NCBI GenBank assembly: GCA_017255395.1
Contig: JAFKDC010000013.1
Location: 62,001 to 126,000, forward strand
DNA length: 64,000 nucleotides
DNA from: Enemella evansiae
Lineage (GTDB): Bacteria > Pseudomonadota > Alphaproteobacteria > Rhodobacterales > Rhodobacteraceae
Direction: 5' to 3'
Shown one piece after another: positions 54,497 to 61,807 of the stretch. Position 1 is the stretch's first letter, and the number at the start of each line of letters is the position of its first letter. A model generated the notes under the pieces. That model did no database searches, was not told the DNA's origin, and saw only the letters and a program-made list of their open reading frames with translations. The position numbers and the translations under genes are program-made.

Positions 54497-55333
54497 TCAG
54501 CTCAGCGCCACGCCTTTGCGACCGGCAAGGTCGGTGAAATACTGCCAGGCCACCCGGCCAGAGCGCGACCCGCGCGTGGCCTGCCATTCGATCGCCTCCG
54601 CCCGCAGGGTCTCGTCGTCGATCGCCACGCCGTGGCGGTCGCAATAGCCCCGGATCATCGCAAGGTATTCGTCCTGCGAACAGGGGTGGAAGCCCAGCCA
54701 CAGCCCGAAGCGATCCGACAGCGAAACCTTCTCTTCCACTGCCTCCGAGGGGTTGATCGACGACGAGCGTTCGTTCTCGATCATGTCGCGCGGCATCAGG
54801 TGGCGGCGGTTCGAGGTGGCGTAGAGCACCACGTTGTCCGGGCGCCCCTCGACCCCGCCGTCCAGCACCGCCTTCAGCGATTTGTAGTGCTGGTCGTCAT
54901 GGCTGAAGCTGAGGTCGTCGCAAAACAGCACAAAGCGATAGGGCGCGTCGCGCAGCAGCGCCAGCAGGCGCCCGACGGACGGCAGGTCCTCGCGTTGCAG
55001 CTCCACCAGCTTGAGGTCCGGGCCTTCCGCGCGCACGGCGGCATGGACCGCCTTGACGACGCTGGATTTGCCCATCCCCCGCGCGCCCCAGAGGAGCGCG
55101 TTGTTGGCGGGCAGGCCTCGGGCGAATTGCAGCGTATTGGCATAAAGCGTGTCGCGCGCCCGGTCGATGCCCACCAGCAGATCCAGATCCACGCGGCTGA
55201 CCTGCGGCACCGGCACCAGCGCATCGGGCGCCACGTGCCAGACAAAGGCCTCTGCATCGAAATCCGGGGCGTCCAGGGGCGGCGGCGCCATGCGTTCCAG
55301 CGCCGCCGCGATCCGTTTCAGGGTCTTGCTCAC
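54497..55333 (-). CDS. AAA+ ATPase, DUF815 family
   Basis: A 278-residue P-loop ATPase: Walker A LLWGARGMGKSSVVKAV, Walker B FVLFCDDLSF, sensor VVLYATSNRRHLM, and RFGLWLGFHPCSQDEYLAMI. These are DUF815 hallmarks; function is unknown. It starts with GTG at 55333, overlapping the tatC stop (GTGA), so it is translated with the tat operon. That suggests, but does not show, a link with Tat export. It converges on nlpD across a dispersed repeat. Confidence 0.88.
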   Translation of the reverse strand: MSKTLKRIAAALERMAPPPLDAPDFDAEAFVWHVAPDALVPVPQVSRVDLDLLVGIDRARDTLYANTLQFARGLPANNALLWGARGMGKSSVVKAVHAAVRAEGPDLKLVELQREDLPSVGRLLALLRDAPYRFVLFCDDLSFSHDDQHYKSLKAVLDGGVEGRPDNVVLYATSNRRHLMPRDMIENERSSSINPSEAVEEKVSLSDRFGLWLGFHPCSQDEYLAMIRGYCDRHGVAIDDETLRAEAIEWQATRGSRSGRVAWQYFTDLAGRKGVALS

Positions 55334-59054: not shown

Positions 59055-59084
59055 TCGTTTCTTCTTCTCTGTGAAAATACTCAC
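59055..59084. repeat. Dispersed repeat half-element, right arm of inverted pair
   Basis: TCGTTTCTTCTTCTCTGTGA and following bases up to ATACTCAC are the reverse complement of the left arm with small differences. It overlaps the last codon and stop of the P450 gene (59081-59084), so it probably acts as that gene's terminator. Confidence 0.65.
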
Positions 59085-60466
59085 AGGCTCGATTTGCCTG
59101 AGGCGTCATCTTTCCGGTTGGAGACCCTCAGCCAGATGCCGTTACGCGCGCGGACGGTCAGGTGCGCTTCGGGGATCGGGGTGCGGTTCGAGACGGGCGT
59201 CACGCGGAAGTCGCGCAGCAACAGGGCCAGCAGCAGGACGCCCTCGACCATGGCAAAGCCCGCGCCGGTGCAGACACGCGGGCCGGCGCTGAAGGGGATA
59301 TAGGCCTCGCGCCCGCAGGTTCTGCCGTTCTCGGTTTGCCAGCGGGCGGGGTCGAAGCCATCGGGGTTGTCCCACAGGCGTTCGTGACGGTGCAGGTGCC
59401 ATGGGCTGAGCACCATCTGTGCCGCCGTGGGGATGGCGCGGTCGCGGAAGCGCTCGGGCCGGGTTGTCTCGCGCACCATCATCGGAACCGGCGGGTAGAG
59501 CCGCAGGGTCTCGCGGAAGACGTCTCGGGTCACGCGCAGTTTCGAGACGCTGGCGAAGTTGGCGCTGGCCGCGCGACCCTCTGCGGCCACGCGGTCCTGC
59601 CATTCGGGATGTGTGGCCAAGAGGTAGAGTGCCCAGCCAAGCGCAGAGGCCGAGGTTTCATGCCCGGCCAGGAAGAAGATCGCCACCTGATCGACCATCT
59701 CGGCTGCGGAGAAGGTCTGCCCGGTCTCGGGGTCGCGGGTGGTCATGATCTTGGTGGCGAGGTCGTCGGGCGCGGTGCCTGCGGCGATGGCCGTCTGGCG
59801 CGCCTCTGTCAGTTGCGTGATGAGGTTTCGGATGCGGGTGGCCGCGGCGCGTGTGTCGCGCCGGAAGAAGCGCGGCATCCAGCGCGGGCCGGGGATGAAG
59901 GCGGCGAGGTTCAGGATCGGCTGGCTGCGCTGGTAGGCGCGGAATTCGTGGAAGACCTCCTGCGCCAGCGCGTCCTCGATGGGGATCGAGAAGAGCGTGC
60001 GAAAGATCACATCGGCGGCGGCGTGGCTGGCCTGCTCCTCGACCTCCACCTCTGCGCTCCCGGCGCCCAGCTGCCCCGCCAACCGGTCGCGCGCCGCAAG
60101 CGCCGCCTGCCACATGGCCGGGTAGGTCTCGCGCAGGCGTCCGCCTTCGAAGGCGGGGTCGATGATGCGGCGCTGGCGCTGCCAGTCCGCGCCGTTGGTC
60201 AGGAAAACCGAATTGCCGAGCAAGGGGCGCAGGCCCGCGCCGATGCGGTCGGACTTGGGGAACTCCATCGGGCGCTCCTTCAGCACCGTCTTCACCAGGT
60301 CGGGCTGGTTCAGCAGGTAGGATCGGAAGAAGGGCGTCCTGAACTCTGCCATCCAGGCCCGGTAGAGCCGCGCGGGCTGGGCCGAGAGGATGTCCTGCCG
60401 GAAGAGTTTCACGTAGCGCCAGAGCGAGACCCGGTCGGGCCGCGCCGCCGGTTTCGGGGGGATCAT
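59081..60466 (-). CDS. Cytochrome P450
   Basis: A 461-residue heme monooxygenase. The I-helix oxygen site reads FFLAGHETSA, the K-helix ExxR is ETLR (FRETLRLYPPVP), and the heme-binding loop is FSAGPRVCTG with proximal Cys at about 399. There is no N-terminal membrane anchor. The LYPPVP and AIPTAAQMVLSPWHLHR blocks suggest a class resembling the CYP4/CYP102-like fatty-acid group, but substrate cannot be assigned. Its start overlaps the stop of the upstream hydrolase gene by four bases. No ferredoxin or reductase is adjacent. Confidence 0.93.
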   Translation of the reverse strand: MIPPKPAARPDRVSLWRYVKLFRQDILSAQPARLYRAWMAEFRTPFFRSYLLNQPDLVKTVLKERPMEFPKSDRIGAGLRPLLGNSVFLTNGADWQRQRRIIDPAFEGGRLRETYPAMWQAALAARDRLAGQLGAGSAEVEVEEQASHAAADVIFRTLFSIPIEDALAQEVFHEFRAYQRSQPILNLAAFIPGPRWMPRFFRRDTRAAATRIRNLITQLTEARQTAIAAGTAPDDLATKIMTTRDPETGQTFSAAEMVDQVAIFFLAGHETSASALGWALYLLATHPEWQDRVAAEGRAASANFASVSKLRVTRDVFRETLRLYPPVPMMVRETTRPERFRDRAIPTAAQMVLSPWHLHRHERLWDNPDGFDPARWQTENGRTCGREAYIPFSAGPRVCTGAGFAMVEGVLLLALLLRDFRVTPVSNRTPIPEAHLTVRARNGIWLRVSNRKDDASGKSSL

Positions 60467-61701
60467 GCGGCGACGCTCGTATACTTGGACACCGCGTGGT
60501 CGATGCGGCTGGCCGAGGGCGGGCGCCCGGCGTAGCGGCTGGCCAGCGACAGGGGGCCGGCGGTGATGCGGAAATAGTCGTAGTCGCGGGGCCGATCGAA
60601 GGCGCAGAGATACTGGAAATGCAGGCGGAAGAAGCGCCAGCGCAGTTCCTTCCAGCGTTCGGGGCTGAGCGACCGGGTGAACTGTGCCGAGAAGACCAGC
60701 GGCCAGCGCTTGTCCTTTGGCGCCACCCCCGAGACGCTGACCGGATCGCAAAGCGCGAAGGCGCAGCCGTCCCCGGGCGCGGTCACGTCGACCCATGTCA
60801 GCGCTTCGCTGGCCGAGAGGAACCGCAGGTCGGCCCGCAGCCGGTGGGCCTCGCGCAGGAAGGACACCATGGGCACCACCTGTCCGAGGCTGAGGAAGGC
60901 CAGACGCGGCCCGTTGGCGGGCACCCGCCCCGCGCGGATCAGGTCGGCGAGGATCGAAACCGCGAGATGCGCACCCGAGGAATGGCCGACCACCAGAACC
61001 TCGTCGACGTCTTCGGTCAGGGCGGCGCCGATGGTGGCGGCGAACTCTGACATGCGCGCCTCCAGCGCGGGCGGGTTGGCGCCCCGGTAGAAGGCCGAGA
61101 AGGCGTAGTCGTGCATCAGGTAATAGGCGAAGAATTTGCCGTCTCTGGCCCTGAACCAGTGCAGCGCCACATAGGCGATGCCGCCCCATGCCACAAGGCC
61201 GGCCAGCGTGGCGGCAATGCCCAGCCAGGGCGTCAGCAGGCCGATCAGCGCGAATCCCGCCCAGCCAAGCAGCAGCGCAAGACCGAGTTGCACCAACAGC
61301 GCCCCGACGGGATAGAGCGCGGCGATCACCGGCCCCTTGCGCAGCCGCATCAGGCGCCGCAGCGCGCCGGTGGCGATGTATTCCCACGAGGTGCGGACAA
61401 GCTGCGCGTAGGTTGCCGGGATGCTGTTCGACATGCTGTCGCGAACGATGTCGGACCAGACCAGCACCTCGATATCCGCGCGGGTTTCGGCGCCCTCCAT
61501 GACCGTCTGCACGTGCCAGCCATAGGCGCCGCCGCCCTTCTTGGGACTCAGCGTCAGCGCGTAGCCCGAGATTGCGGCCTGCGCCGCGCCCTCCTTGCGG
61601 TAGAGCTCGCGGTAGCGGCGCGGGTGAATCGGGTCGTAGCCGGGAATGTAGAAGACCCGGCGCCGGGTCACTTCCTGTGGGGTGTCTTGCTGCTCTGCCA
61701 T
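60463..61701 (-). CDS. Membrane-anchored alpha/beta-hydrolase-like protein
   Basis: A 412-residue protein with an alpha/beta-hydrolase nucleophile elbow VVGHSSGAHL (S241) and an N-terminal RRVFYIPGYDPIH that could form the oxyanion loop. Between them are two or three transmembrane segments (about 125-181), splitting the hydrolase fold. It was not matched to a named family. It is translationally coupled to the downstream P450 gene, so the two may act on the same hydrophobic substrate, for example a lipid or ester. That pairing is inference. Confidence 0.7.
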   Translation of the reverse strand: MAEQQDTPQEVTRRRVFYIPGYDPIHPRRYRELYRKEGAAQAAISGYALTLSPKKGGGAYGWHVQTVMEGAETRADIEVLVWSDIVRDSMSNSIPATYAQLVRTSWEYIATGALRRLMRLRKGPVIAALYPVGALLVQLGLALLLGWAGFALIGLLTPWLGIAATLAGLVAWGGIAYVALHWFRARDGKFFAYYLMHDYAFSAFYRGANPPALEARMSEFAATIGAALTEDVDEVLVVGHSSGAHLAVSILADLIRAGRVPANGPRLAFLSLGQVVPMVSFLREAHRLRADLRFLSASEALTWVDVTAPGDGCAFALCDPVSVSGVAPKDKRWPLVFSAQFTRSLSPERWKELRWRFFRLHFQYLCAFDRPRDYDYFRITAGPLSLASRYAGRPPSASRIDHAVSKYTSVAA

Positions 61702-61807
61702 GGCGCGCCCTCGTTTTGCCGGTCAGCCTAGCCTGGCAATCCGGCAGGAGTATGGCGCGCGCCCCGCCCCGCGCGCAACCGGACTTCGCGCCTCTGGCGG
61801 GCGCCGC

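Follow-up and report, generated by a model that had tools for sequence, protein, structure and literature searches.

In eukaryotes, the route from phospholipase A2 (PLA2) to CYP4 enzymes begins with a lipase that frees an acyl chain, which a cytochrome P450 then hydroxylates on the way to eicosanoids. Among the alpha/beta hydrolases, LCAT and lysosomal PLA2 are secreted or lysosomal and have no membrane hairpin, and PGAP1/Bst1, the glycosylphosphatidylinositol inositol deacylase, is membrane-bound and acts on a lipid anchor. Among the P450s, CYP175A1, CYP102A1, and CYP97 act on long hydrophobic substrates. In alphaproteobacteria, a P450 survey reports that none of the P450 families is conserved throughout the class, with 33 members listed for CYP289A (PMC8197338). 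In this work, we examined a pair of overlapping genes, encoding a membrane hydrolase and a P450, in a stretch of 64,000 nucleotides (the window) that is part of contig C13 (JAFKDC010000013.1, positions 62,001 to 126,000) of a 4.83 Mb genome labelled Enemella evansiae (GCA_017255395.1; Rhodobacteraceae in GTDB). Our results support a conserved two-gene unit without an assigned function. We consider it an even call whether this unit is a two-enzyme lipid-tailoring module at the inner membrane, with the hydrolase acting before the P450. The unit comprises the following features:

60463-61701, minus strand: membrane-anchored alpha/beta serine hydrolase of 412 amino acids (aa), from its open reading frame (ORF), translation, and AlphaFold2 model
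60463-60466, minus strand: ATGA overlap of the hydrolase stop and the P450 start
59081-60466, minus strand: cytochrome P450 of 461 aa, from its translation and a PF00067 match at 248 bits

The start codon of the P450 gene lies within the final four bases of the hydrolase gene, ATGA. A preliminary description of this DNA had noted this overlap and a hydrolase fold broken by transmembrane segments; its coordinates and strands were exact, and both the structural model and the hydropathy agree with it.

Occurrence was counted in an order sample of 244 genomes (the window's own included, the others all labelled as the same family), which is less biased than a count of contig loci. The hydrolase was found in 234 of these genomes and the orthologous P450 (E ≤ 1e-120) in 233. 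Both genes were present in 233 (including G042, whose hydrolase is broken), neither in 10, the hydrolase alone in one (G094), and the P450 alone in none. Adjacency was scored in 80 contig loci rather than in all 233 genomes with both genes; these loci are the best 80 of 569 confirmed by similarity, all with 65–80% identity, and include contigs from uncultured organisms and metagenome-assembled genomes. The best-matching named loci belong to Pseudoponticoccus, Antarctobacter, Thetidibacter, Salipiger, and others, which places the window in the Rhodobacteraceae/Roseobacter group. The P450 gene directly follows the hydrolase gene in 80/80 loci, and an in-frame P450 start at −4, corresponding to a 4-nt overlap with the hydrolase stop, is present in 69 of the 80; because the in-frame start nearest to the hydrolase stop was scored, this count speaks for the presence of such a start and does not tell whether translation begins there. 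Translational coupling of the two genes is probable. The preliminary description had asked whether the pair is conserved across genomes or unlinked in most relatives, and these counts show conservation and linkage. In Roseobacter sp. GAI101 (L069 7224-8593) and in a metagenome bin (L094 7272-8594), the P450 frame is broken by an apparent frameshift or stop, perhaps a sequencing error.

The usual arrangement among 74 long loci runs from rne through tusA (opposite strand), ccdA, the hydrolase, and the P450 to fba; 69 of these loci have ccdA, 64 rne, 60 tusA, and 43 fba (all identified by Pfam). The stability of this order as a whole may suggest that the pair consists of two housekeeping genes with unrelated substrates, kept together by synteny and shared expression. 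The pattern of gene loss speaks against such an explanation, since the pair was lost jointly while ccdA, and fba in two genomes, remained. Specifically, ccdA was kept in 10 of the 11 genomes that lack the P450. In G085, fba lies ~90 nt after ccdA and the pair is gone; in G075, P450 residues 414-448 persist as a remnant between ccdA and fba (L293 5456-5560). Three other genomes (G156, G174, and G081) retain rne and ccdA without the pair, and only ccdA was recognised in G232. Because G060 lacks ccdA as well, its joint absence may reflect a gap in the assembly and is less firm than the other nine. Two further genomes show decay: the unaccompanied hydrolase of G094 is fast-evolving (branch length 1.16 in the hydrolase tree), and G042 has a shortened hydrolase ORF of 208 aa (L158 7784-8410), from which the hairpin and the nucleophile region are gone, beside a P450 with ACHET instead of AGHET. 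These cases, a single one of each kind, fit mutual dependence of the two proteins.

Pairs also occur in other lineages. A hydrolase match was found in 10 of 289 genomes in the class sample, including six from outside the family, of which two match weakly, and a phylum search that scored at most four candidates per genome gave a count of at least 44 of 398. All seven plasmid records with a P450 match at E ≤ 1e-60 also match the hydrolase. In a genus that we call g142, genes for LpxR (PF09982) and a patatin (PF01734) precede the hydrolase and P450 genes in 3/3 genomes, and in G284 the pair has a glycosyltransferase gene and a GST gene after it. A Polaromonas plasmid carries genes for a capsule protein, a GT28-like transferase, the hydrolase, the P450, a 114-aa protein, and a second hydrolase, in that order. 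In G598, from another class, the hydrolase gene is in two parts separated by a transposase gene: the main part is near Capsule_synth genes, and the last stretch adjoins the P450 (L211 3290-8922). In G866, from another family of the class, the P450 adjoins a hydrolase with an internal stop codon. G198, from the window's family, carries two pairs plus one more P450. As side observations, the hydrolase that ends the Polaromonas cluster (L175 10956-12158) is of the same family as the first; a 110-114-aa protein directly follows the P450 in L175 (10600-10944) and L211 (1444-1776), with no Pfam match, a hydrophobic N-terminus, and sequences alike by eye; and directly before one G198 pair lie a SnoaL-like gene (PF07366) and a further, divergent P450 (L159 6107-7954).

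In the P450 phylogeny (39 rows), all 16 hydrolase-linked P450s form one clade with bootstrap 100 and a Shimodaira–Hasegawa-like approximate likelihood ratio test (SH-aLRT) value of 97. This tree omits nine rows of a 48-row quick tree, namely, seven near-duplicate unlinked sequences and two long branches; one of the latter, G198c, was labelled unlinked, yet it lies in the G198a locus and inside the linked clade. Similarly, the 15 P450-linked hydrolases and that of G094 form one clade in the hydrolase phylogeny (41 rows; 100/98), from which the broken G866 and G042 genes were left out and in which the split G598 gene was included in shortened form. In both trees, the sequences of the window's family form one group, and those of g142, Polaromonas, and G598 fall outside it. 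These patterns suggest that the pairing is old, and the simplest history is one old pairing that was inherited and perhaps transferred as a unit. The single pairing in both phylogenies and the recurrence of the pair with different neighbours, together with the joint losses, make it quite unlikely that synteny of two unrelated housekeeping genes explains the unit.

The hydrolase has the following features:

61147-61335, minus strand: two-helix membrane hairpin within the hydrolase fold, residues 123-185
60979-60981, minus strand: nucleophile Ser241, in GHSSG
60769-60771, minus strand: acid Asp311, assigned by conservation
60619-60621, minus strand: His361, assigned by conservation

The AlphaFold2 model (mean predicted local distance difference test [pLDDT] 86.8, predicted template modelling score 0.88) shows an alpha/beta fold with an inserted two-helix hairpin, which answers a check proposed in the preliminary description. 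The long helices 123-154 and 162-185 sit between strands 71-79 and 234-240, and hydropathy peaks there fit membrane helices. The outer ends of the hairpin are flanked by the basic stretches RLMRLRKG and HWFRARDGK; under the positive-inside rule for membrane protein topology, these would put the catalytic domain, both halves of it, on the cytosolic side. Ser241 immediately follows strand 234-240. For conservation, alignments A2 and A3 used in the structural work drew on 75 and 70 of the 80 contig loci, respectively. Ser241, Asp311, and His361 are invariant in 76/76 close hydrolases, the window one included. Among 41 diverse hydrolases, Ser is present in 40 (with Cys in one that lacks a P450), Asp in 41, and His in 40, and the sole His-less sequence is that of G598, whose gene is interrupted by an insertion. 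Five unlinked hydrolases of the 41 escaped a simple G-x-S-x-G pattern; after alignment, four of these have Ser and one has Cys. Loss of the triad in orthologues, the outcome that would have told against the preliminary description, was thus not seen. The assignment of Asp and His comes from conservation and order, not from geometry, and gives a predicted triad.

With its nucleophile elbow, Ser-Asp-His order, model, structural matches, and conserved S241/D311/H361, the protein belongs to the alpha/beta hydrolase superfamily. Placement in a known esterase family was rejected because all scores fall under the Pfam and NCBIfam cut-offs (Abhydrolase_3, 13.2 bits vs. 25; Lipase_3, 12.3 vs. 22; best NCBIfam match, 11.6 vs. 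307). When Pfam was applied to 12 members of the hydrolase family, the best match was Abhydrolase_6 (E = 3.8e-5, with the cut-off for that member not shown). The LCAT profile PF02450 gave no match to the window hydrolase at E ≤ 1 and E = 0.28 for one of the 12 members. A sequence profile of these 12 searched against the PDB reached at best E = 0.006, mostly around the nucleophile elbow. Upon structural realignment, the matches were LCAT (Z 10.5 and 10.3), thermoalkalophilic lipase (10.0), lysosomal PLA2 (9.9), Nir2 (9.8), PGAP1 (9.7), and TesA (9.7), all essentially tied. LCAT and lysosomal PLA2 share the alpha/beta fold and the Ser-Asp-His order over 193 and 184 residues, respectively, but are only 12-14% identical to the hydrolase and are tied with other esterases. 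The likeness to PGAP1/Bst1 is to a eukaryotic protein with a matched chain of 961 residues, and the Pfam PGAP1 profile matched one of the 12 members at E = 0.19.

These matches bear on the order of the two reactions. The P450 may instead hydroxylate an intact lipid or a carrier-bound acyl group, after which the hydrolase would remove, transfer, or esterify the oxidised chain in the manner of LCAT or TesA. Consistent with this, LCAT, an acyltransferase, tops the structural list, TesA is within 1 Z of it, and 5/12 family members have weak Pfam Thioesterase matches. However, those matches are not shown at cut-off and the window hydrolase has none, and sequence does not discriminate between the step orders. 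We consider this reversed order or transfer unlikely.

The P450 has two further features:

59654-59668, minus strand: I-helix oxygen-activation motif AGHET, residues 267-271
59270-59272, minus strand: haem-ligand Cys399, within FSAGPRVCTG

Both are invariant in alignment A3 (71 rows), in which the mean column identity of the P450 is 77%. The Cys ligand motif, the ExxR motif (residues 319-322), the AGxET I-helix motif, and the fold establish membership in the P450 superfamily. The AlphaFold2 model (pLDDT 85.2) is nearest to CYP175A1 (Z 37.9), CYP102A1 (37.3), and CYP97C1 (36.3), followed by CYP97A3, CYP184A1, and CYP46A1. The whole set spans Z 35.8-37.9, and the likeness to CYP175A1, CYP102A1, CYP97, and CYP184A1 is that of the P450 fold at 20-28% identity. 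CYP102A1 has a fused reductase, whereas the 461 aa of the window protein are a P450 domain alone, which adjoins a membrane hydrolase; it is therefore not a CYP102 (BM3-type) enzyme. Its family may be CYP289A.

The presence of CYP175A1 and CYP97 among the nearest structures raises the alternative of a carotenoid-like substrate, hydroxylated by the P450, whose esters the hydrolase would act on. The sister clade of the linked P450s is relevant here. It comprises five P450s without such a hydrolase (none was found for G141 and G227 in the order sample, and G347, G338, and G370 are not among the class-sample matches). The G370 gene is beside a ChlI/BchI-type gene, and the gene before those of G347 and G338 is one that we take to be crtA-like, its only Pfam match being DUF3291 below the cut-off. 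Such neighbours suggest a photosynthesis or carotenoid context for the sister clade. Nevertheless, this clade lacks the hydrolase, and the pair occurs in ~95% of the sampled family, which presumably has many unpigmented members; isoprenoid or carotenoid tailoring is thus very doubtful for the pair. The sister-clade P450s are 35-36% identical (L247 705-1487, L248 704-1474, and L249 302-1324), and that of G227 is followed by a CDP-alcohol phosphatidyltransferase gene (PF01066; L234 5143-5925).

Hydrolases outside the P450-linked clade have other partners. An ICMT/PEMT-type methyltransferase gene adjoins them in L176, L177, L215, L217, L220, and L222 (with a 4-nt overlap in L176 and L222), and a GT28/EryCIII-like glycosyltransferase gene in L174 and L216. 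No such tailoring-enzyme partner was seen at the L223 locus. The families of these partners (P450, ICMT/PEMT, and GT28) modify lipids or other hydrophobic molecules, and in at least some of the hydrolase family a shared first component seems to be combined with exchangeable second ones. The glycosyltransferases may alternatively point to an envelope glycolipid anchor, with the hydrolase yielding a lysolipid or acceptor lipid for glycans and the P450 or another partner decorating it. The Polaromonas and G598 pairs have Capsule_synth genes nearby, that of Polaromonas also adjoins a GT28-like transferase gene, and the L174 hydrolase without a P450 overlaps a GT28-like gene by 4 nt. Kdo is added to (lyso-)PG by KpsS/KpsC (PMC7694667). 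Against this, capsule neighbours were found at two loci only and no such gene is among the identified neighbours in the window's family, so we give the glycolipid explanation a slim chance.

We therefore return to the lipid-tailoring module. The hydrolase and P450 are kept and lost together, which probably indicates a small lipid-processing pathway, and its lipid nature is suggested by the fold neighbours of both proteins, the hairpin, and the distant gene context. In such a pathway, the hairpin would anchor the hydrolase in the inner membrane with its catalytic domain in the cytosol. The hydrolase would act on a membrane lipid, cleaving or transferring an acyl (or similar ester) group, and the long hydrophobic chain would be handed to the P450, whose CYP175/CYP102/CYP97-like fold would hydroxylate it. 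Electrons would come from a ferredoxin encoded elsewhere, and ATGA coupling would hold the two proteins in a fixed ratio. We infer the lipid substrate, the cytosolic topology, the coupling, the redox partner, and the hydrolase-first order; the last is suggested by two things, gene order and analogy. The PLA2-CYP4 route is a working analogy for this scheme and is not homologous to the pair as a system. Where the preliminary description had proposed a minimal pathway on a membrane-derived substrate, a conserved and probably coupled unit is now apparent, and the argument for the lipid is indirect.

Several observations weigh against this module. The hydrolase family occurs without the P450 too, next to a HAD-type phosphatase gene in L218 and L224 and to exonuclease VII and histone-deacetylase-type genes in L213, all neighbours unrelated to lipids. 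Within the window's own family, rne, tusA, ccdA, and fba are likewise non-lipid neighbours, and the absence of the pair from 10/244 genomes indicates that it is dispensable there. A Foldseek search of the hydrolase model against the PDB returned nothing at E ≤ 0.001. The reaction is not fixed by the fold match, because general lipases, esterases, a thioesterase, PGAP1, and Nir2 all score within ~1 Z of LCAT, and lipids are a candidate substrate class. The distant lipid context (g142, Polaromonas, and G598) involves few genomes, and the tree positions of G866 and of the deep pair G198b are not firm.

For the surroundings of the pair, the identified neighbours are ccdA, tusA, rne, fba, a WYL regulator, tatB, tatC, and a DUF815 gene, the further ORFs of the window having been scanned in part. 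The DUF815 ATPase gene (54497-55333) adjoins tatC. The preliminary description had reported no redox partner nearby; this holds for Fer2 ferredoxins, the type of partner scanned for, with none of the 15 matches in the genome falling within the window. A role in anti-phage defence was rejected, as neither protein matches a PADLOC model at E ≤ 0.01. Upstream of the hydrolase lies one more feature:

61724-61756, minus strand: promoter-like element, degenerate in the window, from the window sequence and a consensus of upstream regions

The gap between ccdA and the hydrolase gene has a median of 78 nt (n = 75) and contains an element consisting of CTTACTCTTGCC and a TA-box at a fixed distance. At least 11/16 positions are matched in 55/81 upstream regions compared to 54/1620 simple shuffled controls, a contrast that is somewhat inflated because the consensus was derived from the same sequences. 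The exact pattern occurs at two places in 61 genomes, in each case upstream of this hydrolase gene. The window's own genome, with its degenerate element, has no exact match, and the pattern is thus too strict to exclude a regulon. The conserved element and its exact matches at this hydrolase suggest, at the sequence level, that the pair probably has its own promoter.

With respect to previous reports, the furan fatty acid oxygenase UfaO of Rhodobacter sphaeroides, from the same bacterial family, shares with the proposed P450 step an O2-dependent modification of fatty acyl chains. UfaO is a DUF1365 protein with UfaM/UfaD partners, unlike the window P450 (PMC7380195), and a furan fatty acid route for the pair was rejected on this ground. 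With regard to essentiality and to lipid production, the term "P450" is absent from the main text, tables apart, of a R. sphaeroides Tn-seq paper (PMC5513736) and from the main text of a paper on lipid-production mutants (PMC5442454). No description of a hydrolase-P450 pair was found in the open-access papers searched. The two proteins belong to known superfamilies, the hydrolase family is unnamed, and their conserved coupling was not found described.

The presence of a highly conserved P450 in most sampled genomes of the family suggests that an oxidised molecule, probably a lipid, is made by most of these bacteria, and no description of such a molecule was found. An orphan P450 thereby gains a partner and a testable substrate class, and the pair defines an unnamed family of membrane hydrolases, seemingly with exchangeable partners. 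We put forward only tentatively the more specific possibility that the membrane hydrolase frees a specific acyl chain, from which the coupled P450 makes a hydroxylated lipid that serves as a regular envelope component or signal in this bacterial family, and that the hydrolases are a new membrane-lipase family with interchangeable tailoring enzymes. If true, the lipase-to-P450 reading would represent a near-core bacterial counterpart of the oxylipin route.

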